From Magnolia sinica (Eukaryota > Streptophyta > Magnoliopsida > Magnoliales > Magnoliaceae), in contig NC_080582.1 of the NCBI RefSeq assembly GCF_029962835.1, positions 72,288,177 to 72,352,176 of the forward strand: a DNA stretch of 64,000 nucleotides, read 5' to 3'. Under the pieces are notes generated by a model that saw only the letters and a program-made list of their open reading frames with translations, was not told the DNA's origin and did no database searches. The translations under genes and the position numbers were made by a program. Below are positions 39,356-60,218 of this stretch, piece after piece (the first letter of the stretch is position 1; each line of letters opens with the position of its first letter).

Positions 39356-39366
39356 CTTTGATACCA
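39356..39366 (-). other. LARD primer-binding site
   Basis: Minus strand TGGTATCAAAG, one mismatch from the usual complement of initiator-methionine tRNA, three bases from the 5' LTR (39370-42669). It gives the orientation of the element. Confidence 0.85.
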
Positions 39367-39369
39367 TCT

Positions 39370-42300
39370 TATAATGCCCTGGAAATCGGGGGTCGTGTAT
39401 ATACTCGACTCCCGAGTTCTCGGGGTCACTTATAGCCAATTTTCATTAATATGCGATCTAGTCTAAATGCGCTGCCTGGAATCCCTGGAACATGAAGTAC
39501 ATCCACACAAGTCCACTGAAATAAAAGAGACTAAATACAAATATATATATATATACATATACATGTCCAAAAGAATACATGGGTCACATAAGATGCTACC
39601 CAACTAAATCACAAAGAATAGTGAGTCCAAAAAGGAATAAAACTGAGCCTCCCTGCTCAGCGATCCAATTCCGCCTCTCAAGCTGGCGGAGAACCGTCCA
39701 TCAACTGGAAGTAGGACAACTCGTCCTCCTCCTCGAAGCTCGCCTCACCAGGCTCCTCAAGCCTTGAGTCACCTGCATCTATGAACGGGTCTGGTTGGTG
39801 TTTTAAAACACCGTCCCAGAGTGGGAGTGAGTGATCAACTCAGTGGGTGCTATTAGTCTTAAGTTATCACAGGCATCAATTATAATATGACCTCAATGAA
39901 AAGCAGTCAAGCATAAATATCTAACTAATCTTATTAATGCGCATGCATGCAGGATGATATGATGCATGCCCTCACCACAACGCTCCCTCGAGCGACACCA
40001 TCTAATGATCGCAAATGATAACACTCCCTCAGTGCGACCTCGACTGCCGAGTCGCCACCCTAACTAGTGCGATGCAATGCAACCGTGCTAGCCGAGTTAT
40101 TAGTTAGGTCCATTCATCCAGCAGATTTGGAAATCTGGTACACCCCACGTATTAATGCCCTAAACTGGGTGTGAGGCCAAGACTTCCCAATGCGTGAGGC
40201 CGAGACCCCGTGGTCCGTGATCCCATCGGGTTCCTCATCCTCGACTTCAAGCACATGAGGAGTGCCGAGAGAAAGGGATCGCTCGCAGTTACTACGGGGA
40301 AGCGCGGTACCCCAGCATAGGCCGACAGCTTGGACACAGTGTCCCATTCCACCATGCCTGGCTCACGAGGCTGTGGACCAATTTTAAGCGGGTTATTGAT
40401 GGGCTACCACGGTTGTAGGGTATTTCAGGTTTCATACATGTGTGAGCAAACAGACTTAACAATCAAGGTTGTTCAGACAGTAGGCTAAACCGCACGAGTC
40501 AGGCGAGCATGCGATGAACGACATCGGGTACAAGGGACCCATGTAGTCGAACTACTGCCGCCCGTACACACTCCCCTAAATCCTTGGGTTTAGCCTCAAG
40601 GCGGTTCTACCAACGGAACCACCTTCGTTCTCCTCATGTTCCCGACCAACAAAGGGTCCAATGTTAATTCATAACATACCAACCACCAATATTACCAACT
40701 AGCATAATAATATCATGTTTGCATACATCACAACATACAGTTCAATTATTCCTAACAAGCATGCTACAACAACATGAACAAGGTGCATGTGAGTGGTGTA
40801 GGTTAGGGAGGAAGTTAATCATTTCCTACACCTCAAGGGATCAAATACATAAGAGTAGTGAATCATGCACACCATGAAGCAGCACATATGAGAAAAAGAA
40901 ATCAAATAAACATGAGCATGTAATCATTCATACACTAGATTATGAGAGGCAAGATTTAACATCAAGGAGAACTAAACATGTCATTCCATACAATCCCAAC
41001 AACATACCATTCCTAGGTTCCTTTAGATTCTTCTATACAACATATCAAGCAAACAAAATCATTAAACTCCTACTAAAATTGGTGCTAGGCTACCTAAGGA
41101 TAATAGTCTGCACCTATGGATCGTTGAAGACTTGGAAAACGACCTAGAAGCGCCGAACTCGGTGTCGATCGGCCGGAATCTTAAAGCAATGTACTTGCAT
41201 GTTAGGGTTACATGCATTTCCTAACTCAACCCCAAAGATTACCAAAAAGGATGGGTGCTTACCTCTCCATTCGGATGAAAGTGGCTTATAGTTGTGGATA
41301 TAGGAGGGGGAATGTATTTCTCTAAGGTTTCAAGCTTCCTTGGGCCCCACCTCCTACCACACACTCATTTCCTTCCTTCTTCCTCTCTCTTTCTCCTCCT
41401 TTCTCCTCTTTCTCTTCTCCCTTTTCTCTCTTCTCTCTTTCCTTCTCTAGGGTAAAATCGTATGGGGAGAGGGGTGCCCAAAAGAAGCCCCTTTTATAAT
41501 GCCATATTTGGTGCAAATGGCCCCAAGTGTTGGGTTTTTACTATACTAGACCTATGGGGGGTCTTTCTAAGCTCTAGGGCCCACTATAGGGTGTACAAGT
41601 CGATATACACCGTAGGATAGTTAGCCTTAATGATGATTTTCGTATGGATACGATTGGCCCGCCATTTGGATGCGCCGATTAACAGATACGATTAGAAGTT
41701 TGTTCAACGGTCACCGATAGTCGATCAGGGTCGCGGCTATATGGATATGAGCAGAGAAATATTCTTACTCCACGGGTAAAGTTTGGTCATAAACCAACGG
41801 TCCGAAATTCTCAACTTTGCATAAGAGTGGACGACCCAATTCACTTAAATTTCAATTCATTCTTTTAGGATATTTGTACTTCTCATGCACTCATCCTTTA
41901 GCTCAAGTTGAGCGGTTCTGGACAGCACCCAGGTTCGACTCCCGTGATGGGCGTCAAGCCCAGTAAGATGAACATTATTCTATTGTTTTGGAACTAGTGG
42001 CCCACCAACGAGCGGTCTAGAGTTTGTTTGGAGAATCGGGGTAGTTCTAATGGCCCTCTGGCCATGAAACTTATAGGATAGGTGTTCCATGGCCCGATGA
42101 AGGGCCATGCAAATTTTGGGGACGATCGAATATGGGGTTTGGTCGCACGGGTCCGATTCGTGATCAACGGTCACCGTGCCATGATCGGGACCCAGATTTT
42201 GTGGGCGGGCGTAGACAAATGCATTAGACCTTTACCGTAAATTTGGAAGAAATCCAATGGCTGACATGCCTGAAATCCTAGTTTTATTTACCAGTGCCAG

Positions 42301-42669
42301 ATTCCAATTTTGGCATTGGTGGGTTGCATTTGGCAAGTGTCGTTGGACGGCTTAAATAGTTTATTTCTGAGTGTCCACTGGTCCATAGTCCGCGATGGAC
42401 TACAAGCCCAGTGAAATCTATCTTTTCTCAAATTTTTAGATTTTTCTGACCTTCCTCGGCTACTGCATAGCCTACACAAGCTGTCGCTGAGTATAAATCG
42501 ATCATCTGACTTGATGGCCTGCACACGGTCTGATCGTGACCAGACTAGACCACTCGTATATAAGCTAACATTGAGTGCTAATTACGATCAGTAAGTGATA
42601 ATATAAGTTAATTAAAAAAATTTGAAGGATTTTTGAAAATTCAAAATAGTGAAAATTCAGGATGTTACA
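39370..42669 (-). repeat. LARD 5' LTR (3.3 kb)
   Basis: The more complete LTR copy. High identity to the left copy over more than 3 kb implies recent insertion. A CT-rich tract lies at 41360-41445. Its outer end meets the TCATT duplication at 42670-42674, after which copia protease coding sequence resumes. Confidence 0.9.
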
Positions 42670-43249
42670 TCATTGCCCATAAAGACCTATCTACCATCGC
42701 ATTCCTGTAAATGTCGAACGAACTCCGATAAGGAATGTGATATGATGCTCTTGTGTCAAGGATCCCCTCATCTTTAAGATTGTCATGCAAGTGTCCGGCC
42801 ATAGACACAGACAGAACATCATCTCCGCTTGTTTCTTCATCAGATGTGACAACATTGGCCTCCCTGGAAGAAGCCTCTGAGTTTTCTTTCTTTGCTTTAG
42901 GATTTGTGCAATCATTCTTTATGTGTCCATTCATCCCACAGTTCCAGCACTTTAATTTTCCTTTACCCTTGCCCTTAGATTTAGATCTAGGTCTTGAAGA
43001 TCTTGTACCTCGTTCAGTATTTCAACAACATACATGCTTGTTCTTCATCTTTGATCACTTCCTCCATATCTAGCAGTTTGTAAACCAATTTATTAAAGTT
43101 GCTGATGTGGGCATCCAAATCTCCACCCTTTGCCATCTTAAAGGTGTACCACTATAGCTTCAAGTGCAGACGATTTTCAGAGTATTTTTTCACATAGATA
43201 TCATTTAACTTCGCCCATAAACTAGCCGCAATTTTCTCCCTCAAAACAT
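42670..43249 (-). pseudogene. Copia gag C-terminal part and protease
   Basis: Reading leftwards from 43249: LREKIAASLWAKLNDIYVKK continues gag directly from the piece at 59518-59766. A basic stretch of repeated Lys-Gly pairs leads to a zinc knuckle CWNCGMNGHIKNDC (C-X2-C-X4-H-X4-C, near 42945-42905). The protease active-site region reads ILDTRASYHI near 42760, where DSGASXH is usual, so the catalytic Gly is replaced. Frame breaks occur near 43150 and 42935. Gag packages the RNA; the protease matures the polyprotein. Confidence 0.85.
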
Positions 43250-43600
43250 GACCACCAAAATTATGATTTTGCAACGGATTTTGCGACGGAGTTCGTTCAT
43301 TGCAAAAATCACTTGGTTTAACAACGGATTTAATCTGTCGCTTATGGAAAAAGTCCTTCACTAATCCTCTCGAAAATGTAATTCAAAAGTTGCGAAATTT
43401 CACGATGGACCAAAATCCGTCGCTAAAATTTGATTTACGACGGATTTACGACGGATTGCAGTTCGTCGTAAATTGGCAACGGACTAAATCCGTCGCAAAT
43501 TTTGATTTTGGGACGGAATATCAGTTGCAAATTCCTGCCCAAAATAGCAATTCGCAACGATTTTTAGTTGCTTTTGCGATGGTTCATGGTCCATTATAAA
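43250..43600. repeat. Left terminal and subterminal repeats of the CACTA-like element
   Basis: Multiple copies of CAACGGATT, CGACGGATT and ATCCGTCGC in both orientations between 43269 and 43570. Such clusters are transposase-binding regions in En/Spm-type elements (family knowledge). An open frame crossing them (43300-43599) is an artefact of the repeats. Confidence 0.75.
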
Positions 43601-44980
43601 AGGACTTTTGCCTTAAACATTTATTTATTTTTTCATTTTTTTAGAATATGGTGGAAAATTATGTTTTTTTTAGTCTAAGAATTATTTTTTAATAGAATTT
43701 CAATGGTTTAATTGTACATATTTGTATCTAAGATTATTTTTTAACAATTGATTGAATGCAAATTTTTTATTATTTTCTTTTTATATCAAGTGAGTTGAAA
43801 TTATTATTATTTTTAAATTTAAAACTAATATTTAAATGATTTGTAATATCACATCAAAAAGAATATTGAGAAGTTTAAAAAATTTAACAATGTTTAAGAA
43901 AAATTGAGATTTTGAAAAAAAATTGTGATTTAATAAAAATCTATTTTGTGGGAAAAAAAAGAATATTGAATAAAGTTGATAATTTTGAAAAAATGAATTT
44001 GATTTCGAGAAAAAAATAATATCCTGAAAAAGAAAATTAAAAAGATTAAAAAAACATGAAAATTTTGACAACATTGAAAAATGAAAATATTTTGAAAAAG
44101 AAAATGAGAGTTTGTATTTTGAAAAATAAAATAAAATTGAGAAGTTTGATAAAAATTGACAAGTTCGGAAAAAAATGCTTTAAAAAGATGGAGAAGTTCG
44201 AAAGAATTGAAAATTTTAAAATTAAACGATATTAAAAAATAGAGACTAAGAAAAAAACAAACATTTTGAAATGAAAAATAAAGAATTTGAAAAAATTTGT
44301 GATTTTGAAAAATAATTAAAAATGTTCAAAATTTGATATTAAAAGAAAAAGTTATTTATAAAAACACTGAGATTTTGAAAAAAAAAAAAAATCATTTTAA
44401 AAAAGAAAATTGAAAAGTTGAAAACAAAATGATGCTTTTGAAGAAAAAAAATCGGCATTTTGAAATTTTTGAGGAAAAAAAATAAGATTTGAGAAATTTT
44501 TTGAGATTTTGAAAATAAAAATTTAGAATTTGTATTTTAAATTATTTTTTGAAATATTTTATAATAAAAATGATATTTTGTTAAAATTTTTAAGAGTAAA
44601 AAAAATATACGTTTTGAAAAAATGTTATTTTTAAATGAAAATTGAAATTTATCTGTGAAAAAAATATTTTTTACTAAATTATTAGGCACATCCACTTATT
44701 GAACCTTTAACCGTTTTTGGACAATTTAATCAGTCCGGATTGAAGAGTAAATAACTTCAGATGTTTAAATCAAATTTCACTCAAATTGTTGATCAATCTT
44801 GTATGCCCAATATCTTTCTCATATGTAGCTTGATCGGGGCGAGTAACTAGTCAAATTAAGCATATTGATCAGTAAAATAGAGTGAATGGACCAGACATGT
44901 AAAATGGGCAAAATATTCTGGTCAAAATTGTGACCCAACTTATTGACCTCATGAGAACCTAAGAATTGATGTTAGTAAGT
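43601..44980. other. AT-rich, A-run-rich filler without gene
   Basis: Mostly short words such as GAAAATTTTGAAAAA repeated irregularly between 43850 and 44660. No coding potential. It lies directly inside the left terminal repeats of the CACTA-like element. Confidence 0.6.
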
Positions 44981-45262
44981 TTTGTGGGCCCATCATGATG
45001 TATGTCGAACATCAACACCGTGCATTTGATGTGTCCCCTTTAGGTTATGAGATATCTCAAAAATCATCCGTATACGAAACTCAGGTAGGCCATACCATAT
45101 AAAACCATGTGAAGACATCCTAAAAAATATAAAAGCACTTGGTGGGGCCCACATAATTTTGGATGCGCTGAAACTTGGTCTGACCCCTCATCCAAGTGGG
45201 ACACACATAATGAGTGGGTTAGATATGTGAATCACATTTAGGCAGGCCTAATATATGATTAT
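44981..45262. repeat. GGGCCC-type foldback element copy
   Basis: Begins TTTGTGGGCCCATCATGATG, contains GGTGGGGCCCACATAATTTT in the middle and ends near TGGGTTAGATATGTGAATC. Family blocks are in order but the inverted ends are weak. Confidence 0.6.
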
Positions 45263-45329
45263 GAATGTTTTAAGGAAACCCCTCTCTACTACATTTAGGT
45301 GAGTTACTCATTACCCTTACTAGAGTAAA

Positions 45330-45705
45330 CTCTATGGGGTCCACCATTATTTATTTATTTTATCCACTTTGTTCATCCATGTTAACAGATAATTTGAGGT
45401 CTAAAGAATGAAAAGGAAGCATATCCAAAGCTCAAGTGGACCACACCACAGAAAATAGTGTGATTGAACCTCTACAATTAAAAAATTCTTAGAGGCCCTA
45501 GAAGTTTTGGATCAAGCTTGATGTTTGTGTTTTCTCTTCATTCATATCTTTTTGATATTATGAACAGGTTGGATGGCAAATAAACATTACTATGGGCCTA
45601 AGGAAGGTATCAACGGTGGAAATCATTATTCCACACTGTTTCATGTGGCATGGTCCACTTGAGTTTTGGATTTACCGAAAATTTGAGATCAACCCACACC
45701 GTTCA
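45330..45705. repeat. GGGCCC-type foldback element copy
   Basis: CTATGGGGTCCACCATTATT at the left, AAGTGGACCACACCACAG and GATTGAACCTCTACAATT inside, GGTTGGATGGCAAATAAACA, then TGGTCCACTTGAGTTTTGG and CACACCGTTCATCC at the right. It runs directly into another partial copy. Confidence 0.65.
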
Positions 45706-45948
45706 TCCATTTTTCGAGATCATTTTAGAGAATTATTAAAAAAATGAATCATATCCAAAGATTAAATGGACCACACTACAAATAAGGGGAATGAATTGGC
45801 TACTCCCCCTGACACTAGCCAATGGCTAGTGGTTGATGCTCTATGGGCCCCACCATGATGTATATGTTTCATCCATGCCGTCCATCTAATTTTAAAGATC
45901 ATCTTATAGCATGAGACCAAAAATGAGGTATATCCCAATCTGAAGTGA
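45706..45948. repeat. GGGCCC-type foldback element, partial copy
   Basis: GGACCACACTACAAATAAGG then CTATGGGCCCCACCATGATG, GCCGTCCATCTAATTTT and AAAAATGAGGTATATC. It looks like the broken end of one copy joined to the start of another, with an inverted pair CTAGCCA/TGGCTAG between them. Confidence 0.55.
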
Positions 45949-45954
45949 AGAGGA

Positions 45955-46530
45955 ATCGCCATAATTGACCGTGAAATGAATGTAAATGACTGTGAAGTGA
46001 AGGGAATTGACCGTGAAATGCATGGAATTGACTATGAAGTGAACGGAATTGATGGTGAAATGCATGGAATTGACTATGAAGTGAACGGAATTGATGGTGA
46101 AATGCATTGAATTGACCATGAAGTAAAGGGAATTGACCGTGAAATGCATGGAATTGACCATGAAGTGAAGGGGAATCACTGGAATTGACTGTGAAATGCA
46201 TGGAATTGACCGTGAAGTGAAGCAAATTGACCGTGAAATGCATGGAAATGACTGTGAAGTGAAGGGAATTGACCGTGAAATGAATTGACTTGACCGTGAA
46301 GTGAAGGGGAATCGCTGAAATTGACTGTGAAATGAAGGGAATTGACCGTGAAGTGATTGAAATTGATTGCGATGTGAATGAAATTGACTGGAAAGTTAGT
46401 GAAATTCATTGCGAACTAATTGAAATTAAGCGCAAAGTGAATGAAATTGAGCGTGAAGTGAATGAAATGAATGAAATTGACCGCGAACTGATTGAAATTG
46501 ATCACGAAGTGAATGAAATGGATTTTCAAC
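45955..46530. repeat. 21-bp (7-codon) minisatellite open on both strands
   Basis: About 25 degenerate tandem copies of GAATTGACCGTGAARTGMA-type units, mostly 21 bp, arranged as alternating half-types (GAAATGCATGG and GAAGTGAAGGG), giving a 42-bp higher period. Because 21 is a multiple of three, long frames stay open: minus-strand HFTVNSM/HFTVNSL heptads (45904-46409) and plus-strand EIDREVN heptads (46332-46541). No start context, promoter or homology supports a real protein. Confidence 0.85.
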
Positions 46531-47934
46531 CATCAACCTGATGGAATCTTGGAAAATAACGAAGTTGGTTGGCTAAAATAGCTTCTCCTACCCCAAAATC
46601 ATATATGGTACATCAAGTAACTAATTATGGTTTAGAAGATATTCTTGTTAAAAGAATAAAGAAAGAAATGAAAAAAAAGAGAGATTTTTTTATATGATTA
46701 TATATACATATTTATATAAATATGTATTACAGAAAAATGTAGGTAGAATAAAGTTCTCCATGTAAAAAAGAAAAAGAAAAAGTGTATAGATTACCGCAAC
46801 ACTATTGTTATGGCTACGGTTATAATCCGTAGCCATAGGGAACCCCCCAGCTTTTAGAAATCAAAAAGCTGAAGAAGCAGGGGCATTTTCGACCTGAGAA
46901 ATGGGGCCGTACAGCTGGGGCTTAATTGTGGAAGCTAAAAAGCAAGCGGGCTTAAAAAGGTTCGTGGGCCATACATTGGTTGGAAATTTCTCATTGTAAA
47001 ATGCACTCAGACGTGAATGCGTGTGTGCGTTCACCATAGCTTTTAAATGGCTTAGGGGTTATCATATCATTGATCTAAACCGTCCATTCATTCATACAAC
47101 CGGGAGAAAGCCATGGTGTAAATATCATGCCAATGGGGATGATCCCCAGTGTCTGATCAATGGGATGATAGTTTTGGAAATTTCCCAAATGCCTCTACAC
47201 ATCTGTTGTATTTGAGATTATAACTGTAACATAAGGCACATCATAGGCCAAACCTGATACTTTAAAGGTGCATAGTTAGAAATTGTGTTTTCTTGGACAA
47301 TCTTTTGGGAGCAATTGCTAAAATGCATTAATGGTTTCATTTTCAATACATCATCAAAATTGTTTTCTTGAATGATTAAGAACTTTGACCTTTTGCAAGC
47401 CCATCTTCCTCAGTGAGATGAAGAGGATTTCTAGATGCTCTTTTAACAATTTCATTCAGTTAAAATTTGTATACTAACTAATTGATTAGGAGTTATGTAC
47501 TTTCTTTGATTGCTATGTGCTGTGGCCAGACAGGCCAGGTAGTATTTTAATTCAAAGTCACTGAGACATTTGGTGATGCATTAAAAACTCTGTCCCCAAT
47601 GTTCAAAAGGAGACATCCAGCAGAGGGCTAACCATGGCAGCCCCTCTCAGTCACTCTCAGGTATGAGTTCTCATTCCGCATGTCTTTATTGCTTTGGTAC
47701 ATTTGTAAACATGTGCCTATGGTAGCTATTTTTATTTTTTATTTTTAAAAGGAAAGGTGGAATCATTCCACCTGAATTTTATTTAGGTGAAACTGGAATA
47801 TACAGCCATTCCACCTGAATTCCACCTGAATTTTATAAGCAGCCTGCCTTTTGCTTTTAAGTTACCCACCTTCGTTCAATTCCAATACTCTCCCTACTTT
47901 TAGCACAATAGATGCTTCATCATAGCTTTGCCCC
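46531..47934. other. CACTA-like interior before the LINE, no clear gene
   Basis: Contains a perfect 11-bp inverted repeat TATGGCTACGG/CCGTAGCCATA (46809-46819, 46827-46837) just after ACACTATTG, which recalls the end of another CACTA-like element. A CAACCATGGCAG region near 47620-47660 ends in CTCTCAG then GTATGAG and could be a small exon with donor, but no family is recognised. Otherwise AT-rich. Confidence 0.35.
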
Positions 47935-47950
47935 AACTATTTGGTTCGGC

Positions 47951-49619
47951 AACCCAGATCTGCACCTAACACTCGACAGCAGGATAGCCGGATCTCCAAT
48001 CCAACAGAGCAATCTACCAGGGATAGCAGAGGCAGCGAACAGATCTTCCTCGACGGACCACCTAACCGAACTTATGCAAACGTCCTCCATCCTCCCAATC
48101 CACCGGCCACCTCCAAATCCATCGTCGTCCCAAAATGGATATCGGACAAAGGAAAGGCGAGCATGAACTACGCCATTGTGGGGGAAGTGCCTAGCCCCAT
48201 CGATGCCACAAACGATCTCTATGCGGCTCTGTAATCTTCCTCATTTCGCAATAATCTGATTCTCATTTTCCGAATCTCAGAATCTGCCTACATCTTCAGA
48301 TTCGATTCAAGGGAAGAAGTCCTTGTTTTCTTAAAAGATCGATCCCTGCACCTCAAAATGGCGCTTACAAATACCCGAACATGCAGTCCATCCATGTCTA
48401 CCCCGGGCAAGGGAACGTGGATTAGAATGTCCATCCATGTCTACCCCGGGCAAGGGAACGTGGATTAGAATTGAGGGCATCCCCATTCATGCGTGGAGTG
48501 AGCACAGCATCCGCCACATTGCTGAAGAAATGGGATCGGTTATTGAACTGGACCGGCAATCGATCGATGGCCCGAACCGTTGGTTCGCTAGGGCCAAGAT
48601 CAACCCCCACCAGGACATCCCTTGCCTCAAGAAATCCACTCTCTTGGTGGAGGGAAGAGCTTATTACATCACCGTTTCCATTGAAACCTGCTCCCATTTT
48701 GGAGCACAGATGAGGAACGGTGCAGCCCCAAATTCCTCTGTGAGAGAAGGAACGAAACAATGGGTCGCCAGAACGTTTATGAGCAATCAGCAGGACGAAA
48801 CAGAGAAAGGCAGGACCCAAACTCAGCCCGAAGAAAGGGAGCAACCACGGCAACAAGGGAACCTTCCACCTGTTTGTCAAAATGCCAATCAGAGCAATAT
48901 CAACATTGATGAACTTCTGCTCACTGGGAGCAACTCTAATCCGGACACCCGAATTACAGCTGCCAATGCTTTCCCTCCTCTGCTCAACCATCAAACTCTC
49001 GATCTACCGCCCCCAACAGTGAACACTTCATCAGTCGTGCAGCACAGGACCAGCTACCAAGGCACATCAGCGGCCCCTCAAATCAGCAGCTCATCTGTAA
49101 GTACTGATCTCATGTTTTGTTGATACTAACATACAGATCCCAGCTCATTGCATAAACCAGGCAACCCAACACTGCCCTTCCACTCCAGCCCCTTGGATCC
49201 ACCCTCAGCCGGTTAATCTAGAAGCTTGGGAGAAGTGGCTATCTGGAGTGAAAGAAATGTTCAAGGATAGCCCGGTGAGGCCACCGACGACCTTCTCCCC
49301 GATCTCACACAGAATTGGCACAGAGTCGACCAGAATTGCTGATGGACCTGATGGAGGGACTATTGCAAGACAGGAGGGAAGCCCAAATAATGCAGCAGCG
49401 AATGAACAGACCACGGTCCTTTCGGGAAAGCTTCAACAAGACCAGGCTAATGAGGAGCTGAACCTTTGGGTGGATTTACAAGCCAAATGCAGCGACAAGT
49501 TTCCGTCCAGCTCAGGATCCAGCAGCGGACCTCAGGTACAAGATTACGATTCCAGCAAGAGAAAGAAAAGGACAAATCTCCCGAAACTAACCCACTTCAG
49601 CAGGAAAGCCAGAGGCTGA
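47951..49619 (+). pseudogene. LINE ORF1, DUF4283-type nucleic-acid-binding protein
   Basis: The N-terminal piece (to 48234) has the PPNRTYANVL segment common before DUF4283. After a stop the DUF4283-like core reads GTWIRIEGIPIHAWSEHSIR and RWFARAKINPHQDIPCLKK (48455-48640). A glutamine-rich, disordered middle follows and the last part ends in a lysine/arginine-rich tail (SSKRKKRTNLPK) at 49619, 42 bp before ORF2. A 43-bp direct duplication at about 48386-48471 (CCATCCATGTCTACCCCGGG twice) disturbs the core start. Frameshifts occur near 48235 and 49123. Confidence 0.7.
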
Positions 49620-49661
49620 AGAACAAGTACAAACGGGCTGTGCATAAAGGATGGGTTACTG

Positions 49662-50525
49662 ATGATTAGCATCTTATCCTGGAATGTGAGGGGGGTAGGC
49701 AATACCCATACTACCCGTTACCTGAAAAGATTGATCAGAAAACACAAAATAGAAATCCTTCTGCTGCAGGAGCCAATGCTCAGGGACTCCAGGAAAGCAG
49801 CTGTAGCTATGAAGTTGGGGTTCACCAATCAGATCTCTGCTGACACAGTTGAGAATAAAATTTGGATTCTGGGGAGGAGTCACATTCACTTCCAGGCAGT
49901 TTGGTCCACCAGACAATGCATCACTTTTGAAGCAAAATCGGGAAAATCCCCCTTTTTAGCAACCATCACCAATGTCTATGCTAGCTGCTCCAGGAACCTT
50001 AGAAATCTTCTTTGGGAAGAGCTTAGAGGGACTTTCAGAGACACAAGGGGCCCTTGGCTGGTTTGTGGTGACTTCAACGCCACAACCTCTCCCGATGAGC
50101 GTCTTGGGGGCCAGCTGCAGATCACTGGTTCTATTACCGACTTTCAGCAAGTGCTCAACGATACCGGTCTGATCGATGCTGGGTATTCAGGATCCCCATT
50201 CACATGGTGCAACAATAGAACGGGAAGAAGTCGAAGATGGGCCAGAATGGACAGAATGCTTACCAACGCTGACTGGATATCAATGTTCCCTCGATTCAAG
50301 GTCGACCACCTTACAACAGCTTACTTAGATCATTCCCCAATTCTCCTCAGCATCCAAGATGAGTCCTCTAACTTCCCCCGATCATTCAAATTCCAAAGTA
50401 TGTGGTCTGTCCACAACGATTTCATGCGGCTGGTAAAAGATAGTTGGAACAATGAGATAGTCGTCACTCCTATGTATAAGCTCCATATCAAGCTGAAAAT
50501 CCTGAAATCAAGACTGAAAATCTGA
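49662..50525 (+). pseudogene. LINE ORF2, endonuclease domain
   Basis: A clean 287-codon frame starts MISILSWNVRGVGNTHTTRY. Metal and catalytic positions of the exonuclease-endonuclease-phosphatase fold are visible: WNVRG, LLLQEP (Glu), VCGDFNA (Asp, Asn) and the closing DHSPI (Asp, His). It is followed by the linker to the reverse transcriptase, where the frame shifts at about 50522. The domain itself looks intact, so its loss of function is due to separation from the reverse transcriptase. Confidence 0.85.
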
Positions 50526-53200
50526 ACAACGAGGTCTTCGGCAATGTGAACAGAAACGTCCAGGAGGCTGAGCACAGGTTAACATGGCGGAGCTTCTACA
50601 CCTTAATTCTCAATCGGATGCTGACCTCGCCAATCTCAACCTTGCTCAGGCCAAGCTGAAGAAGGTCTACTTACAAGAGGAAATCTTCTGGAAGCAAAAG
50701 TCGAGAATCACATGGCTGGAAGAAGGAGACAAAAACACAAAATTTTTCCACAAATCAGTCATTGACAATCATAGGAGATCGTCGATCAACCATCTCAAGA
50801 AGCCAACAGGTGAAACCATCGAAGACACCGTAGCCATTGGAGAAGAAGCTTCCAACTACTTCCAAACGCTCTTTTCTTCTGAAAGCAGCAATTCTTCGAC
50901 CCAAATCCTCAGCTGTATCCCAACATTGTTGGATGACCGCATGAATGATTGGCTCTCTCGGCAGCCGACTTTGGAAGAAGTCAAGGCCGCTGCCCTGTCC
51001 ATCCCAGTTGACAGCGCTCCCGGGCCTGATGGTTTTGGAGGGGCCTTTTACTCTTCGTGCTGGGACGTGATTGGCAACGACATTCTCGATGTGGCCAAAG
51101 ATTTCCTCCATGGAGGTCCGATTCCTAAAGCTTTCCAATGCACCCTGCTTTGCCTCATCCCGAAGAAGAAAAACCCAGAATATATCACAGATTTCGGACC
51201 GATCAGCTTATGCAACTGCATCATGAAGATTTTCTCGAAGATGCTAGCTTGGATTCTTCCCATGCTAATATCCAAAGAGCAAGGAGCTTTTGTAAAGGGA
51301 AGATCGATAGCTGAAAACATCTCAATAGCTAGGGAGATGGCCCATGAGATAGATCGAAAAGTGTATGGAGGCAATCTCATTATCGACTGGATATGGAAAA
51401 AGCTTATGATCGCTTGGAATGGGACTTCATTTCGCAACTGCTTCTGAAATTCGGATTCAGCCCCCGCTGCATTGCTCAATTCCAACGTTGCTGGAAAGAC
51501 GTCTGGTTCTCGACTCTCATCAATGGTAGGAGTTTTGGATTTTTTAAGTCCAGCAGGGGCCTTAGGCAGGGGGACCCGCTCTCTCCATCCATCTTCATCC
51601 TTGCAGCAGAAGCTTTTAGCAGAGGCATCACAAATCTCTTTTCCTCAGGAAGCTGTCAACCTTACCACCTTCCCCAATCTTGTCCTACAATCACACACCT
51701 TTTTTTCGCTGATGATGCTATTCTATATCTTAATGGCAGGCTTCCTAACATGAGAACTCTCCTCAGATTCATTCGAGAATACGAAAGTGCATCAGGCCAG
51801 AAGGTCAATGCGGCCAAAACCTCTTTCATTGCCCCTAAGAAGATGTCTCGCAGCAAAGCCCAACGATTATGCAACCTGATGGGTTTTAACTAGGCTTCCT
51901 TCCCATCAGTTTACCTGGGCGTTCCCCTATCCAAAGGAAAAATCACGTCTTCTCTTCTGCAGCATGTCGTCCAGAAGATCACCAATAAGATCGAAGGCTG
52001 GAAAGCAAAACTTCTCAATCCTGCAGCTCGAGTGGTGCTCATCAAGCATGTTCTATCAAGTGTCCCCATTCACCTCCAGTCAGCAACCAATATTCCAAAG
52101 GCTGTATGTAAATCGCTAAACAGAGCCTTTGCCAACTTCTTTTGGGGCAATTCAGAGGCAGGTACAAGAGGCATTGGGTCAGCTGGGAGAAGCTCAGTAC
52201 TCCCCTCCATGAAGGGGGGCTGGGTATCAGGAAAGTTGAGGAAGTTATGAGAGCCCTTAGAATAAAGATGGCCTGGAACTTGCTGAAAGGCACGTCTCTC
52301 TGGGCTACATTCTTCTCAGCCCGATATCTGTGGAAATTCCTTGCTACCAATGGGCGGGTGGACTCCGCCACGTCTCCGATTTGGAAAGAGCTTAAAAAGG
52401 TATTACCGTTCACCCTTGTTCATTCTAGATGGCTTCTTGGAGCAGGGAATGTCAGTTTTTGGTTCCACAACTGGTCGGGCAATGGGATTTTGGCTGCAGC
52501 TGCGGTGTCAACCATTCCAAATCACCTACTCAATGCCTCAGTCAGCGACTTCAATCCCATTTCAGGTTCTTGGAATTTTTCTGACATTCAGGATATTATT
52601 TCCCCTGCTGCGATGCAGACTATTCTGGCTTCTGAGGTTGCCTTTTCTGACCGCCCTGACAAGTTGATCTGGGACCTATCTTCATCTGGAGACTTCTCCC
52701 TTAAATCAACATGGAATGGCATCAGAAGGCAACAACCCCCGATTCCATGGATGTCATGGATCCGGAATAAACACCTTCCACCCAAATTAGCTACTTTTGT
52801 GTGGAAAACGATTCACAAGGCGGTCCCCACTGATGCAGCGCTGCAGAGATTCGGTATCCCTATTGTATCTAAGTGTGAATGTTGCAGGCTTCCTCTCCCG
52901 GCAGGCTCCGCTCCTACGAGAATGGCTCACATCGGGTAGACCCCTATTCAGACACTCCCTACTGCCCCCCTTGCAATGGACAGCAACTGTTCAGGCACCC
53001 TGCTTTCCAGCAACCAGCAGCAAGTTTGGGACGTTGTCGGACAACAGGGCACGGTGGAGTCCCTCGATCACCTCTTCTCTCATGGTCATATTGCTTCGAG
53101 GGTATGGGGTTTTTTCAGCAGGCTTTTCAACATTCCTCTAATCCAAGGCCAATCAATTCTTCAACGTATCAATCTTTGGATTGCTGCAGCCAGTTAAAAA
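50526..53200 (+). pseudogene. LINE ORF2, reverse transcriptase and zinc-knuckle region
   Basis: Blocks in order: NNEVFGNV linker, EIFWKQKSRITWLEEGDKNT, SAPGPDGFGGAFYSSCWDV near 51015, FGPISLCNCIMKIFSK, MEKAYDRLEWDF near 51393 after a frameshift, SSRGLRQGDPLSPSIF near 51550, HLFFADDAILYLNG near 51700, VYLGVPLS near 51912, GGLGIRKVEE near 52215, then LIWDLSSSGDFSLKSTWNG and LATFVWK, and a CECC zinc region near 52875. A TAG at 51891 and shifts near 50522, 50583, 51390, 52165 and 52937 break it. Confidence 0.85.
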
Positions 53201-53439
53201 TCTTGCTCTGCCATCCTAACTGGCATCCTTCCCTGCATTCTCATTTGGGAGCTGTGGTTAAGCAGGAACGCAACAACGTTCGAAGGTCACATCATGTCTG
53301 AAAAAGCTGTCATCACCAGGGTCTCTCGCTGGGTATGAGAGATTGGCTCCACCATCCCATTCTCAGACAGGCATTCCATGGCTGAGAACGCCATCCTCAG
53401 CACCCTGCAGATTTCTAACCCATCTCTTTCTCAGCCCCG

Positions 53440-53967
53440 TTCCCCGATCATTGTTCGATGGTCCAAACCCCCAAAGGACTAGCTGAAGCTCAATATTGAC
53501 GGTTCGTCAAGAAGCAATCCAGGGGAGAGCGGAGGGGAGGGGTATGTCGGGACAGTTCTGGAAAGCTTATTTTCGCTTTTCATAGATACTATGGAAGGAC
53601 ATCTAACTCGGCTGCAGAAGCCCAAGCAATGCTTGATGGTTTGGTCGTTTGCTCCAACATGGGGCTCCCCAACATCATTGTTGAATCAGATTCCAAAGTT
53701 ACAGTCGAAGCAGCGGAGGATCTCACTTCTTCCATTCCCTGGAAGGTTTGGTATATTATAGGTGCAATCAGACAAAAAAGATGGAGCCTCAATTTGCAAT
53801 TTTCTCATATCTTTCGCGAGGGGAATTCCGTGGCGGATGCTCTAGCCCATTTGGCAAGTGACAGCTGCCCGAATCGGATCTACACAAGCCGCTCGTCCCT
53901 TCCGAGGCTTGTTAGAGGTCAGCTTGTGCTGGACAACACGGGCTTAGGCGCCGTTAGACCCTCGTGA
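53440..53967 (+). pseudogene. LINE ORF2, RNase H domain
   Basis: LKLNIDGSSRSNPGESGG carries the first catalytic Asp. After frameshifts near 53550-53630 it continues with NIIVESDSKVTVEAAED (second Asp), FREGNSVADALAHLASD (third Asp, His nearby) and the tail VRGQLVLDNTGLGAVRPS, ending at 53967. Same family as the RNase H pieces at 8011, 22768 and 60497. Confidence 0.85.
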
Positions 53968-54065
53968 TTCTTTTCCTCTCTTCCTTCTGTGGGTCCGAGT
54001 TGCTTAGCGTTGTTCTGCGTCCCATGAGGGGACCTTTTGCCTTCTTTTCAGATTGCTTGACTGCG

Positions 54066-54150
54066 TTTACACGATAGGTGTGGTCCTCTTCCTTTTTGTA
54101 GGGACCCACCCGAATGGCTGTACATGTTGTTGATTAATGGAATACAAGCT
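54066..54150 (+). other. Shared LINE 3' tail motif
   Basis: ACACGATAGGTGTGGTCC, a T-run, GTAGGGACCCACCCGAATGG, CTGTACATGTTG and TTAATGGAATACAA in sequence. The same core is found near 8546, 8774, 23291, 61679 (plus) and 11285, 19195, 60595 (minus). Confidence 0.7.
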
Positions 54151-54213
54151 TTTTTTTTTAAATTTTTAAAAATTTTTTTTTTTTATATATAAAAAAAAAC
54201 TATTTGGTTCGGC

Positions 54214-54794
54214 TTTATGATTTCTTAATGTTAAAAAAAAAAAAAAACTATTTGGTTCGGCTTTATGATTTCTTAATGCCTTTATATCAACCATCACACA
54301 CAACACCAGTATGAAATAAACTCTCAATCATACATATTGTGGCAGGGCAATATCTGGCGTGTTCATGCGATGAATGGGAAATGGTTATAAATACACAAAT
54401 CAGATGATTCATGTATCCAAACAGCCAAATTGTCTTGTTAGTAGAAAACAGTTGAAAACATTTTTCATTTCTGCATGAATTCCGTGTATCCAAACACACT
54501 GCTATGCTCACATGTACATCTATACAAGCTTCTGCTTTCTTATCCTATTGTTCTGTGTTTTGTTATCAATATTTTATTCCTGTTTATCAATAGGTACTCT
54601 CATTTTACATAGAGTTATCTCATGAAGAGTAGAGATGAAGTTTTACACCTAATGTTGGGCACATGGGCATGGAGAGCAATAATCTCATGCTTTGTGACAA
54701 TATAACTTCATCATTTATTGTGTTTCAAGCCCAATTTTGAGTTTGTGTTATTTAAAATGATGGCTGTTTCTTTTTTTCTTTAAATTTTGGACAG
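54214..54794. other. CACTA-like interior between LINE and gene fragments
   Basis: A second copy of the LINE target segment (ACTATTTGGTTCGGC) lies at about 54249-54263. The rest is AT-rich and has intron-like composition leading into the acceptor at 54794. No exon recognised. Confidence 0.4.
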
Positions 54795-55605
54795 GAATTT
54801 TGTCTAGTGATGTTGCAGCTTTTGGAGTTGGGGCTATTCAGGTGACAATCACAACTCTTTTGCCACATCTGAAAAATTCTCTTCTCCACTCATGAATATT
54901 CTTATTCCGTGCATGTTACTGATGTCTGGTCATAATAATGCAAGGTGATACATATTTTTGTTTAGGTCGTTGAGGCATATTTTTGTTTAGGTTGTTGTTA
55001 CTGTAATTACTACTTGGTAAAACTGGTAGACGTATTCTTCTTATTGTGAGTTTTTGGAAGGATGGTTGATTCTACTTCCTGGTTGTTGTTATAGGTCTCC
55101 TCTTTTGGAATGACACCCTCTCTTCTCTTTGTTGCAGTTGCATTTTACTTAGAGGTTAGTTTGACAAACCATTCCTTCCAAAAAAAAAAATAGTTAGTAA
55201 GTCCATTATTTTCACGTATTCCAGTATGTGCTTGCTTACTACATAAATTGTGCCCAATAGCTCTTGGCCCATCTTGAAGAGGACTTCATTTTCTCTTGCA
55301 ATTTTCTTTTTCTTTTTTCAAAGATTTATCTTCTTTTATGATATCATCAGATTTTGTTTTTCTTTTTTGCTAAAGTGTTATAATAATGTGGATGCATAGG
55401 ATTTTATATATGAAGCTGCTCATGTCCACAGTCTACTCAGCGTAGTTTCACCAGTGGGAATTCTGGTATGTCTTCGATGTTGACTCTTCATGGTCTCATT
55501 CATATGTTCCATTTCTTGTAGAGCATTGTCTGATTGATTCCTTAGTTTCAGGCATTTATAGTTTCATACTCTCTTGGAATGGGAGCCCTTCCATGGGTTA
55601 TAAGG
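54795..55605 (+). pseudogene. ERD6-like sugar transporter, five-exon fragment
   Basis: Exon-like blocks lie at 54795-54841, 54991-55050, 55095-55154, 55400-55465 and 55552-55605. Each starts after an AG acceptor and three end at a GT donor. In order they read SSDVAAFGVGAIQ, TVITTW with TGRR (two frames), VSSFGMTPSLLFVAVAFYLE, DFIYEAAHVHSLLSVVSPVG and VSYSLGMGALPWVI. This order and the introns match the second half of ERD6-like monosaccharide transporters (major facilitator superfamily), where AFSLGMGAIPW-type sequence precedes the last helices. Exon 2 has a small frame-shifting deletion and lacks its GT donor. The start, end and remaining helices are absent. It was probably copied from a host gene with introns. 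Confidence 0.7.
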
Positions 55606-55855
55606 AATTTTTTTCCCTTTTCTCTTTGATCTTTTAAATGAAAAGTTAAATTACTCTTTAAATGTGCCCTGATTCTATTGATTTGTAATGCCTTGCCATT
55701 TAGTCTTCTATTCAAATTCGTGAATGTTTTTTCCTTTGAAGGGAAATGTTTGAATAGATAGAATAGCAGTTCCCATCGATTTTTGTATCTTGTAGCTTCA
55801 GTGATTGGCTTATCTTTTGCAGCACCAATAGAGAGTTATTTATTTATATTCTTAG

Positions 55856-56421
55856 GTGGGAAGCGCCTTATTCCCGTGGGTCTAGGAGATGATGATCAAT
55901 GCATTGAGGATGACTTTACTGCATGGCGTGCAATGCTTTCATCTTTAGGATTGCTGTTTGTCAGAACTTTTGAATAGGCCACTCTTTTGTGTTTGTTTAA
56001 ATTAAAGGGTTTGACTTATATCAACCATGCTTTTCTATTTTAGGCGAGAGCTCCTATGGCCCGAGTTGGATCAATTGCTTCGGGATAAAGATGATGCATC
56101 GGATGCTTCAACCCCTTACACTGCTGCCATACCTAAATACCGAATCATATTTTATGACCCTGAGGTTGCAACACTACAGGAAAAGAATTGGATTAATGTG
56201 AATGGCCATGATGTTCATGACATTCAGCATCCATGCAGGTAGTGAAGAATATTATATACGTGTGTGCGTGCGCGTGCGTGCGTGCGTGCTTCTCAAAGCT
56301 TACTCATTCTATGGTTCTCTCTATTAAGAGCTAATGTGGCTGTGAGGAGGGAGTCTCACACTCCAGCTTCTGATCATTCTTGCATTCATCTGGAATTTGA
56401 CATATCTGGGACAGGACTTGT
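55856..56421 (+). pseudogene. NADPH-cytochrome P450 reductase, three-exon fragment
   Basis: Exons at 55856-55926, 56045-56238 and 56329-56421 encode [44 protein letters not shown] and [20 protein letters not shown] with FDISGTG. These are the junction between the FMN domain and the FAD/connecting domain of plant P450 reductase, the ER flavoprotein passing electrons from NADPH to P450s. The usual splice site after ...TAW is spoiled by one extra base on each side (TGG-C-GTGC and TTTTAG-G-CGAG), so the first two exons no longer join in frame. The FMN core and the whole NADPH domain are missing. It is a fragment, not a working gene. Confidence 0.85.
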
Positions 56422-57284
56422 GTAAGTTTCCTTTGGATATTATTTGATGCAACTTCAGAGCCACACTGATGATTACAGCTTTTTCTTTCGAATTATAGGA
56501 TTTCTTATTGCTCTTGATAAGTTGTGACAATAGTTTTGCTTACTATAAATGTTAATATTTCTTGAACAGTTTCTCTTGTTTACAATTATAAGTTCTGATT
56601 TATAATTGGTATTCAAAAACTGTCAAGAAAATGTGGATGTAGTGTACTTGTTATGTTTTTTGTCTACCTGGATGATTTCTCAGTTTGGGAGCTGTAATTG
56701 AGTGTGGGTGTATTGTGCTTGCTATGTTTTTCTGTCTAGCCAATTGAAACTATTGTTTATTGTCCAGATTTCATTAACCATTTAATTGTGGATCTATTAG
56801 CCTTTGCATGCACATTGACGTATAGCATCTCTGAGTGCTCAGGTTTTTCTGTGTTTGATTTTATGTGAAGAAGGGAGAAAAGAAGAGTTTTTCTGGTAGA
56901 TGGGAGTTTGGTTTTCCAAGTAAATTTTAGTTGTTGATGAGGTGTGGTTTGGGATGTTTGACTTGAAATTGGGAACATAACTGTTTTGGGTTTCTTTTCA
57001 AGTTCTGCTTCACAGGGAAAGGAAATGGCTTTCTTAAAGATTAGATAAAATTGTCCTTTGCCAGATTTTAGGCTTCTTACTTGCACTCTTCAGTGATTTT
57101 TTTTGGAAGGATTTATTTTGACGTTTCAGTTGGTTAATGGGTTATAAGATGACTTTGCCTCGTGGAAAGAAAGCTGTTTTCTTTTTTGCCTGATGATCTT
57201 GAGTTATGAGTCCCTTGATTGGCACCACTAACTGGTTTCCTTAACTGCAACTTCCCTCCCCACAAGAAACAAGACAAAGGATGG
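56422..57284. other. Intron-like stretch after the reductase fragment
   Basis: Starts with the donor GTAAGT at 56422. T-rich sequence typical of plant introns. The next expected reductase exon (YETGDHVGVY) was looked for and not found before 57600. Confidence 0.5.
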
Positions 57285-57352
57285 ATTATCTCATCATCAT
57301 CTAAGTCTTATCCCAACTAATCGGGGTCGGCTAAAGGTTGGACTCTACAACC
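57285..57352 (+). repeat. Fragment of a widespread plant SINE-like repeat
   Basis: TCATCATCATCTAAGTCTTA, then TCCCAACTAATCGGGGTCGG and CTAAAGGTTGG. This phrase is familiar from short interspersed repeats in many plants. Only the end part is present, without a tail or duplication. Confidence 0.5.
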
Positions 57353-57599
57353 TTTATTTGTATATTTTACCTTGAGTTATTTTCATTGGAGATAGTGGTG
57401 GAACAAATGATAAAAAACCACTATGAATGTAGGGTTGGAGAATTAAGAACACACAAGATTAGAAGGAACCAAAAGAATTCTCTTTAGCGACGAAGGTGGA
57501 ACTAATTTCAACCATGAGACCACACACCTTCAGGAAAACTCTTTCTAACACACGGCAGCAAAAATAGGAAAAAGTTACATTTTCAACCCATACCTGCAG

Positions 57600-57868
57600 G
57601 CCATGCATATTCTAAGGCAGTTACAGAGGGAAAGCTTCCTTCGAATCCTTGGGAACAACAGAAGATGGATTTGAAGAATAATTGGCCCAAGGACAAATGC
57701 TACGACTCTTTCAAGACATGGTCAGGAAGACTCGAGAGGCAGCTCTCAAACTTACGTGGAAAGCATCAGGAAACAGAACCAGAGGTCAACAGTACACAGA
57801 CTGCTGAAATTGAGGTTTTACCAGTAGATTGCTACTATGATGCCTTAGGTGAATTGGATAATCTCAGG
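57600..57868 (+). pseudogene. SLAH2/SLAH3-type S-type anion channel, single-exon fragment
   Basis: After an acceptor CCTGCAG the 269-bp exon stays open and ends AGG-GTACGT. It reads KLPSNPWEQQKMDLKNNWPK, DSFKTWSGRLERQLSNLRGK and EVLPVDCYYDALGELDNLR. This is the cytosolic N-terminal stretch just before the first membrane helix of SLAH2/SLAH3-like plasma-membrane anion channels, which normally read VDRYFDALEGPELDTLR; two residues of that motif are lost. No channel helix follows. The exon is in line with the two preceding fragments on the same strand. Confidence 0.7.
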
Positions 57869-58569
57869 GTACGTGGACTTTTTTTTTTTTTGCTGCTGCT
57901 GTTGTGCTCTATTTGCTTCGTTCAGCTGACAGGATATCATCTTTATAATTATAAATGCTGTTTCAAAGCAAGTGTGGAGTGCTACTAATTTGGAGAGATC
58001 TGACATAAATAAAGTCTTTTGTGGGTATGAGACCATAATCAAGTTTTCTCAAATCTGCACTTGATTGGGAAAGATCTTAATGGCATTAGTGCTAACATGG
58101 AATGCATATGCAAGTCTGGGCCATTAATTAGGTGATGCCGATAGTGAACATCACCTCGTCAATAAATCAGAATGGTCAACGCATCAAGTGGGCCACCTGT
58201 GCATGAGAAAAATGGATGGTTAGAAAATTGTATGGGTCATAGTTTTCCAATTCATCCAATAGGGTCACTCCACTAAAAAGTTGGGCGTCTAAAAAATAAG
58301 CTAAGCTAATTGGTTTGTAATTGTCTATTTAGTTCATTTGATATTTAAGGGTGTATGTAATTGTACAAAAATGCCATCACATGACGGCTTTATTTGCTAT
58401 ATTTGGTTGTCTTGATTACGGACCTGTTGCTGCAATCCTTCTCAGGGTACCGGGCACGCGAGAAATCATTCGTCTTTGGATATGGAAGGGTTGGCTCTCC
58501 ATCATGTCTTTGGATGTGGAGGGGATGGCAATCCATCAGCTTCGAGGGGCAAGAACTCATTCATCAACT

Positions 58570-58617
<48 letters not shown>

Positions 58618-59239
58618 TTCATATGTTAGTTTGGGTTGGCTTATTTCTTGTTGTAATTTGGTTCTGAGTTCGTGTGAACACATTGATTCACTTGATTGGA
58701 ATCAACCTATGCAATGGACTATTACATAGCGCTTGTAATCAACCTATGTAATAGTTCATCACATAGCGCTTTTGGAAGTTTTGATTCATTTATTTGCTAG
58801 AGCCCATCATGAATTGCTTATGATTCTAAAGAATCACTTTTGTGGCAATTGTAGAAATAGAATCATGATACACGAGGAAAGCTTGTTCTCACAACTTACA
58901 ATAGAATCATGATACATGAGAGTTGAGGCTCTCTGTCCCATTGTTATTAATGAATGAAATGAAAGTAATTACTTCTACCCATTATTAATCAATGAAAGTA
59001 ATTCCGTCTCCCTTGGTATGTACTTACGATGGGAGTCATGATACATGAGAATGTCTATCCCATGTTTATTTATCAACGAAAGTAGTTATCCCTTGGAAGG
59101 TAATTGTACCTTGCACATAATGATTATGAAAATTGCCTAACCTCACTCCCATGTTTGATGTTGTTGCTATCCAATCATGTGAATTATTTTTTGAATGACT
59201 ATCAGGTGTAAGATTAAAAAAAAAATAATAAAAAAAATC
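57869..59239. other. CACTA-like interior, right part
   Basis: Mostly unrecognised. 58447-58571 is an exon-like block after a CTTCTCAG acceptor reading HARNHSSLDMEGLALHHVFG and ending SFIN with a stop; no family recognised. A (TC)21 run follows at 58573-58614. At 58705-58775 a 36-bp tandem pair (AATCAACCTATG...CATAGCGCTT) occurs. GAATCATGATACA recurs at about 58859, 58909 and 59034. Confidence 0.4.
58573..58614. repeat. (TC)n microsatellite
   Basis: Twenty-one uninterrupted TC units. Confidence 0.95.
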
Positions 59240-59517
59240 TGACGATATTTTAGCAACGGACCAAATCTGTCACTAATTTCTAAACAAGTTGATAATGGAC
59301 GACGGATTTGAGGTTCATTGCTCTCCTCATATTAGCGAAGGACCTTATCCGTCGCTAATATTTTTAATGACGAATAATTCAAGCGGTTTTTTCTGAATTT
59401 CAGCGACGGAAAAATGACCCAGTAAACAGCGACAGACCAAGCGACGAACAAAATCTGTCGTTTATTTGGTTTTATGACGGATTAGGTCCGTCGCAAATTC
59501 GTGATTTTGGCGTAGTA
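59240..59517. repeat. Right terminal and subterminal repeats of the CACTA-like element
   Basis: At least eight copies of CGACGGA-type words in both orientations (for example GACGGATTTG near 59298, TCCGTCGCTAA near 59349, TCCGTCGCAAATT near 59488), closing with GATTTTGGCGTAGTA. The inverse complement of this end matches the left terminus in layout. Copia gag resumes at 59518. Confidence 0.8.
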
Positions 59518-59766
59518 ATTGTAGAGAACCTCATTCGTGAGACATAAACGAATGAAAGCTAAAGCATTTATGTCAAGAGTATTCCAGTCTTCGTCATTTA
59601 TAGTTGATTTTCGCTCCTCGAGAGTCTTAACTTCGCTATGCTTAGTTAATAGACTAATCATCTTAATCTTCCATAACTCAAATATATTTTTGCCCGAGTA
59701 CTTCTTTATATCAAACTTGGCTTTTCCCATTGATAATAATCCCGCAGATCTAAATCTATGCCCCAA
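59518..59766 (-). pseudogene. Copia gag N-terminal part
   Basis: The likely start is MGKAKFDIKKYSGKN (second Met of the frame, near 59730), as in copia gag. NIFELWKIKMISLL, DEDWNTLDINALAFIRLCL and TNEVLYN follow. The coding sequence then meets the CACTA-like end and continues at 43249. Confidence 0.8.
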
Positions 59767-59783: not shown

Positions 59784-59785
59784 CT

Positions 59786-60068
59786 TGTTGGGTTTTGGAC
59801 TGCGGAATCACATAGAGATGGATCTAGGATAGCAATCCAAGAGCACCAAGAAAACACAAGCGAACATAAAGATTTAATGTGGAAAACTCTTTCGGGAAAA
59901 AACCACGGCACAAAGCGACAGATCTTCACTATGAATTATAAAGAGGAAGGACTTACCAGACTTGAGCAATCCTCAAATCTCTACCTTGCTCTACCCTTTT
60001 AGAAACCCTAGAACCCTTTTAGAAAGCCTTAGAATCCCCTAGAATGCCTCACAATCCCATTTACACGC

Positions 60069-60108
<40 letters not shown>

Positions 60109-60218
60109 GTATACATAGTTGTAGAAAGAATCCCAAATAAAATCGGAAAGAATCCTAAACAAAATCGGAAATAAATCCTAAACAAAATCTGATTAGATTT
60201 AAGACATCAAATACAACA
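59786..60218 (-). repeat. Copia 5' LTR
   Basis: Plus strand runs TGTTGGGTTTTGGACTGCGG to ATACAACA. It aligns with 28332-28754 and contains an AC microsatellite (about 60073-60101) not present there. TTTTT follows at 60219-60223. Confidence 0.9.

Follow-up and report, generated by a model that had tools for sequence, protein, structure and literature searches.

A locus in the Magnolia sinica genome raises the question of how pieces of three unrelated host genes came to lie in a row inside a disrupted retrotransposon. The locus is contained in a stretch of 64,000 nucleotides, hereafter the window, which is part of contig C10 (72288177-72352176); other places in the genome are given as contig and position. 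A preliminary description had proposed that a CACTA-like transposon carries fragments of an ERD6-like sugar transporter, of NADPH-cytochrome P450 reductase (CPR) and of an SLAH2/3-type anion channel. From searches of the genome (1.84 Gb), we conclude with high confidence that a non-autonomous CACTA (En/Spm) element, of the Pack-CACTA type and with captured host DNA inside it, is inserted here. The three fragments do stand in a row, on one strand of a single insertion and with introns kept, as first described. The window copy of the element is referred to as W and its relatives as copies A, C, D and E.

Limits and classification of the element

The insertion is 16,267 bp long (43251-59517) and splits a minus-strand copia gag, the reading frame of which is kept when position 43247 is joined to 59518 (...CLTNEVLYN followed by VLREKIAASLWAKL...). 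A copia relative at C1:20.53 Mb (L043) is continuous across the insertion point and represents the empty site: its positions 2273-2821 correspond to 60058-59518 of the window and 2820-2995 to 43249-43074, the two matches overlapping by 2 bases. Because the gag frame survives joining and L043 is uninterrupted at the same point, the DNA in between is read as a single insertion, and the limits first drawn from the interrupted gag were confirmed.

The motifs GACGGA, CGACGG and AACGGA occur 14 times in the left 300 bp of the insertion and 10 times in the right 300 bp, compared with 0.38 per kb between both ends and 0.44 per kb in window positions 1-43250. The terminal repeat clusters reported earlier are therefore real, and repeated subterminal motifs, a feature of the CACTA superfamily, occur at both ends in A and C as well as in W. 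The CACTA-like termini claimed for W were found on the right side only, where the element ends in CTACGCCAAAAT, a sequence with no other exact occurrence in the window. Allowing up to two mismatches yields 8 matches across the window against 5.1 expected, a number reached by 15 of 100 shuffles. The right terminal inverted repeat (TIR), read inverted, is TACTACGCCAAAAT and begins with TACTA.

Since the left end of W is degenerate, the window alone is insufficient proof of a CACTA element, and the proof is supplied by sister elements, in which the CACTA left ends of the family are visible. Copy C (C18:23066724-23079116, 12,393 bp) starts with CACTACGCCAAAAT and finishes with ATTTTGGTGTAGTG, with CACTA at both ends. 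Copy A (C10:18497105-18484402, minus strand, 12,704 bp), 54 Mb from W, starts with CACTATGCCAAAAT (CACTA) and finishes with ATTTTGGCATAGCG (right CGCTA). Both are complete elements with the left arm of W, a core of transporter and CPR pieces and parts of the right end; their CACTA ends, together with the common left arm and core, support the En/Spm relationship proposed at the outset. W thus combines CACTA ends (in its sisters) and a non-autonomous structure with host coding DNA, source genes elsewhere and several copies with common termini.

Several observations count against this classification. The left end of W reads GACCACCAAAATTATG, and in each of the three elements only two of the three bases of the target duplication are equal (W ATG/ATT, A ATT/ATC, C AAG/AAA). 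A 3-bp target-site duplication is the rule for the CACTA superfamily; age or a 2-bp duplication would fit the mismatch at the third base. PMC8903248 gives 5 nt for its own element set. No transposase appeared in a Pfam scan of 100 open segments of W (at least 38 amino acids, nested retroelement left out) or of 144 open segments of C and A (at least 42 amino acids in C, mostly at least 46 in A), no genome search for an autonomous partner having been made. Weak Pfam matches in W (Zn_ribbon_19, TAP35_44, NPV_P10 and PPP1R21_C; E 0.0018-0.0078) were dismissed as chance.

Helitrons and Pack-MULEs also carry multi-gene fragments with introns, but the family of W has CACTA TIRs and target duplications of 2-3 bp. 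Helitron ends (TC...CTRR, no target duplication) do not fit the outer ends, A and C starting with CACTA and finishing in its inverse; the interior was not scanned for them. Pack-MULEs have long TIRs and a 9-bp target duplication, and no 9-bp duplication is present at the empty site, where the flank matches overlap by the 2 bases noted above.

Table 1. Features of W and its insertion site, in window positions
Feature	Position	Strand	Basis
Left target-site duplication, ATG	43248..43250		gag frame of joined flanks; empty site L043
Left arm: degenerate TIR, subterminal ACGGA repeats (43273-43512), AT-rich stretch, dispersed repeat	43251..45930	+	common to A and C; motif density
21-bp tandem repeat array	45963..46520		
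Non-coding core block	47518..47922	+	93% to C, 95% to D, 94.7% to E (47518-47834 only)
Nested L1-type long interspersed nuclear element (LINE): DUF4283, endonuclease, reverse transcriptase, zf-RVT	47951..54197	+	domain matches; target duplication
ERD6-like sugar transporter fragment, captured with introns: five exons, of which the last is cut; frameshifted	54539..55603	+	PF00083; parent gene match
Captured CPR fragment: three exons and introns	55836..56837	+	plant CPR match; parent gene boundaries 55836 and 56837
Linker	56838..57430	+	common to A, absent from C and D; no source found
Captured SLAH2/3 N-terminal exon and intron start	57458..57945	+	SLAH3 match; source-like locus L045
Right arm	58310..59517	+	58310-59171 in other loci, not A/C/D; terminal 345 bp partly in A, C, D; TIR 59504-59517
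Right target-site duplication, ATT	59518..59520		2 of 3 bases equal to left ATG

Captured fragments and their source genes

The transporter exons of W match PF00083 (E 1.6e-6) and reach only E 0.12 in a PDB search; we take the subfamily to be ERD6-like. The fragment is present with its introns and is wider than the 54795-55605 first proposed (Table 1). Its parent lies at C6:104.62 Mb (L033/L042), which is 88-90% identical to W with introns included and has an additional upstream exon, an intact exon 2 and a last exon that runs to the end of the Pfam Sugar_tr model (452/452, E 1.9e-8). The short motif CTTATCC stands at the junction on the left edge. W, A, C and D, the four copies that were compared, have the same 4-bp deletion in exon 2, where the parent is intact; W has lost a further 4 bp, and two further 2-bp losses are common to C and D.

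The CPR exons of W have no stop codon and match a plant CPR at E 2.2e-55; an NCBIfam search returned nothing for CPR. The interval 55856-56421 named earlier does hold CPR exons and introns, and the captured DNA extends beyond it on both sides. The parent gene at C10:82.65 Mb is about 92% identical to the whole fragment, introns included. Comparison with a paralogue at C9:5.53 Mb shows it to be a full gene, whose exons span the protein from its N-terminal region as far as the C-terminal VW. The paralogue itself was rejected as parent, being 73-76% identical overall. The match ends on the left in a TTTA run and on the right inside an intron, and the donor of exon 1 in W appears to have changed from GT to GC.

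The SLAH piece matches SLAH3 in PDB at E 6.8e-9 and has no Pfam match. The stretch first recognised (57600-57868) lies within a larger piece of captured DNA, whose right limit is near 57945 or perhaps 58252; sequence up to about 58252 is also dispersed in the genome. A source-like locus at C3:130.06 Mb (L045), of which 2 kb were fetched, has the exon and the intron start and is 87.6% identical to 57458-57945, with a Kimura two-parameter distance (K2P) of 0.085-0.092. The stretch 57775-58113 is dispersed, accounting for 36 of the 40 scored matches in one search (40 of 57 candidates scored; the matches cover 57775-58100) and for 30 of 40 in another (40 of 1,792 candidates scored). From one such place (L044) W differs by a K2P of 0.065 on 246 sites; as W is no further from L044 than from L045, the donor may have been either the gene or another repeat.

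For the transporter and CPR, then, parent genes were found and their introns match those of W, and for SLAH a source-like locus covers exon and intron start. Capture at the level of DNA, as the preliminary description had argued from the retained introns, is upheld, and retroposition of the cargo was rejected on the same ground.

Among 46 CPR matches in the genome, 41 are pieces of 48-91 bp; some form pairs from one place, and one belongs to copy E. Several CPR loci (among L020-L028) join about 55910 directly to about 56343. Two of these loci, L025 and L028, reach further into the parent CPR intron than the fragment in W, an indication that this part of CPR was captured more than once. At L044 (C2:52628901-52630400) the SLAH piece adjoins a phototropin LOV exon (E 5.5e-7), and the dispersed SLAH piece perhaps marks another family of repeats with gene fragments in this genome.

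Such dispersed CPR and SLAH pieces, and the phototropin exon at L044, are what would be expected if another carrier, a Helitron or other gene-carrying repeat, had brought the fragments into a CACTA element before the latter began to spread. The SLAH piece of W begins at 57458, however, and the dispersed one at 57775; the sequences next to the fragment edges differ among W, A, C and D; and no further pair of element ends was noticed around the core, Helitron ends inside not having been searched for. We consider another carrier unlikely.

Related copies and their cargo

The left arm of W, about 2.7 kb, is about 84% identical to A (43255-45947) and C (43303-45926). At the right end W matches C over 59172-59516 at 78%, and A over 59173-59343 at 79% and 59469-59515 at 87%. 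The search for copies with the same termini and cargo thus yielded A and C with the transporter and CPR core; SLAH was absent from A, C and D. Copy A contains CPR and has no match to 57431-59171, nor to the core block at 47518-47922.

In copy C the core departs from W at 56170, inside CPR exon 2, so that the first third of the CPR piece is retained. It is followed by two adjoining aldose-1-epimerase exons (L016:1778-2014 and 2425-2625), which match PF01263 at E 5.6e-6 (0.6 bits under the cut-off) and 1.1e-9; the NCBIfam search and a PDB search with one of these exons gave nothing. Five subterminal-type motifs stand inside copy C at element positions 3728-3982 (L015:5451-5705) and may be what is left of an inner element end. 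Copy D (C53, L041), of which 10 kb were fetched, contains right subterminal repeats and neither TIR, its left end lying outside the fetched stretch. It has the transporter and lacks CPR, and from the equivalent of W position 55642 it carries a SHAQKYF-type MYB fragment, PHR1-like by eye, that matches TIGR01557 at E 2e-20 on two exons joined by hand; with Pfam only, the match (E 0.0057) falls short of the cut-off. In copy E (C3:65.64 Mb, L038) the transporter part is shortened, and the start of CPR is present. The five gene fragments seen in W, C and D are all in sense orientation, reading the element from left to right, for which the chance is 1 in 16.

The adjacency of the three fragments in W could in principle be that of degraded neighbouring genes thrown together by chance at a host locus or by an assembly join. 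Transporter and CPR pieces, however, recur in the same order in two more full elements, on C18 and C10, whose flanks are dissimilar (no similarity among W, A and C in 1 kb on each side), the source genes lie elsewhere, and an empty site exists in copia. Among the matches seen, the three fragments were nowhere contiguous outside a CACTA element, the arrangement that the preliminary description had set against its own reading. We regard a host locus or assembly join as scarcely credible.

The preliminary description overlooked the LINE, which is 6.25 kb long, is bounded by a 16-bp target duplication (AACTATTTGGTTCGGC, at 47935-47950 and 54198-54213) and lies between the left part of the element and the transporter. 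W measures about 10.0 kb without it. In C and D the blocks that flank the LINE site are present without the LINE, with about 320 bp of other sequence instead; copy A lacks the left flanking block and is therefore uninformative on the timing of the LINE insertion.

Divergence and coding state

Intron K2P between copies and parents, for CPR and the transporter, is 0.067-0.091, with the exception of the CPR piece of copy C (0.054 on 135 sites), and between copies it is 0.038-0.050. Because the copies are closer to each other than to the parents and have the 4-bp deletion in common, we read the core as having been assembled once and then spread. Within the left arm, W is closer to A than to C in four of four blocks, and the core is star-like.

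Two sets of distances tell against so simple a descent. Over all 340 sites the CPR piece of C has a K2P of 0.049 to the parent, 0.053 to W and 0.052 to A; as it is as close to the parent as to the other copies, the case for a single CPR capture depends on W and A together with the common transporter deletion. Moreover, the termini are mostly more divergent (K2P 0.07-0.25 left, 0.22-0.38 right) than the core (0.04-0.08), an excess that simple descent does not explain and that may reflect arm exchange or a higher rate of decay in the repeats.

Exon divergence between copies is 0.050-0.073, not below that of the introns. As exons have diverged like introns and the transporter frameshift is common to the copies, no protein function is expected, and the gene fragments are most likely non-coding passengers. 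The CPR codons of W and A differ by 14 nonsynonymous changes in 271 sites and 7 synonymous in 80 (0.052 vs 0.088), counts too small to show or exclude weak constraint and too few to decide alone.

The preliminary description had also envisaged a read-through chimeric transcript or small RNAs, here from 54539-58252, acting on the parent genes. The sense orientation of all five fragments and the retention of several splice sites agree with such a role, and the soybean element Tgm-Express1 yields spliced chimeric transcripts according to PMC1947982. Exon divergence, the common frameshift in transporter exon 2 with the further 4-bp loss in W, and the probable GT to GC change at the CPR donor make functional cargo improbable here. 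The spliced-looking fragments are nevertheless a warning for annotators, as they could be called as genes.

Assembly of the element

W looks like a hybrid, its SLAH piece and right arm being foreign to its sisters. None of A, C and D contains a match to 57431-59171, and 58310-59171 recurs at full length and 90-94% identity in at least four other loci (C11:17.82, C2:96.15, C4:1.03 and C3:38.74 Mb) and in part in at least one more, among the 40 of 1792 candidates that were scored. Two of the four loci were fetched (L046, L047) and continue into subterminal ACGGA repeats, the fetched stretches stopping before the TIR. A position of SLAH between a left part common to A (to 57430) and the right arm of other loci is a prediction of fusion between neighbouring insertions, a model set out in PMC8903248 and PMC13317346.

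On our reading, the left arm and the core with transporter and CPR pieces would have been assembled once and would then have spread by transposition, with transposase supplied in trans and acting on the TIRs. By the fusion route, SLAH-derived DNA together with the two neighbouring CACTA elements that flanked it may subsequently have been mobilised as one unit, giving the hybrid. The hybrid would then have inserted into copia gag; the L1-type LINE also entered it, and the order of events suggested here is provisional.

We tentatively prefer the fusion route, slightly ahead of gap repair and at somewhat less than an even chance. Some results speak against it. Fusion predicts remnants of TIRs or subterminal repeats, and no match to an internal TIR was found in W, A, C or D; an internal cluster of more than two motifs occurs only in C (five motifs). 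Nor is the terminus of W at 59172-59410 clearly closer to the C11 and C2 arms (L046 and L047; K2P 0.192 and 0.183) than to A (0.193).

Gap repair is nearly as plausible. A break left by excision of a CACTA element would have been filled with template switching to host genes at short homologies, fragments being added stepwise. The source genes retain their copies, short motifs occur at junctions (the TTTA run at CPR and CTTATCC at the transporter), and the lack of visible internal TIR remnants points the same way. Gap repair alone, however, leaves unexplained why 58310-59171 has its matches in other arms, ending in subterminal repeats, and none in A, C or D.

Beyond the fusion of neighbouring insertions, the lineage as a whole might be a directional collector of cassettes, with a constant left arm and transporter and with sense fragments added or replaced rightward with each new right arm. 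We think this rather doubtful. If it were true, SLAH in W, aldose-1-epimerase in C and MYB in D would be such cargo, and one lineage would yield new exon combinations by arm exchange.

Comparison with known systems

Multi-gene cargo was already known for some plant CACTA elements, as the preliminary description had stated. According to PMC8903248, Pack-CACTA elements of Arabidopsis and maize take up pieces from more than one locus per element, and from several loci in maize. W resembles them as there described in being non-autonomous, in its CACTA-type TIRs and unrelated gene pieces, in having related elements with differing interiors and in the proposed origin by fusion. Unlike them, it is longer, at 10.0 kb without the LINE, than the Arabidopsis elements, and source genes, empty site and a different right arm have all been seen for one locus.

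Tgm-Express1, as portrayed in PMC1947982, is a 5.7-kb CACTA element with exons and introns of five unrelated genes, located in an intron of an expressed gene. W likewise belongs to the CACTA elements and holds exon and intron pieces from genes that are unrelated. Chimeric transcripts are proven for Tgm-Express1, and in contrast to its place in an expressed gene, W lies in a retrotransposon gag.

A literature search on CACTA elements, gene fragments and cytochrome P450 reductase did not return this combination of genes; one on Pack-TYPE elements and magnoliids returned nothing, and one on CACTA, gene fragments and Liriodendron nothing on transposons. The combination is absent from the literature searched, as expected for any single element. 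The value of the case lies in how fully it can be resolved and not in a new kind of system: with source genes, empty site, sisters and a differing right arm in one genome, the order in which host DNA was collected can be reconstructed and fusion can be separated from gap repair.

Other features of the window

A short hairpin at 46788-46860 (GGCTACGG...CCGTAGCC; TATGGCTACGG...CCGTAGCCATAG) stands behind CACTATTG and resembles the subterminal repeat of another CACTA family. A second CACTA element nested around the cargo was considered from this hairpin and dropped, no partner end being found by eye or by search.

Outside the element, 28331-28754 and 59785-60218 are direct repeats (86-96%) that may be the long terminal repeats (LTRs) of the interrupted copia. 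Direct repeats of about 3.2 kb at 31774-35002 and 39365-42669, with 93-98% identity and 7.6 kb apart, include part of the copia GAG-pre-integrase region and may represent a long-LTR insertion or a tandem duplication. Between them, 36001-39000 has a strong GC skew of 0.34-0.57 over 3 kb and minus-strand reading frames rich in serine and proline.

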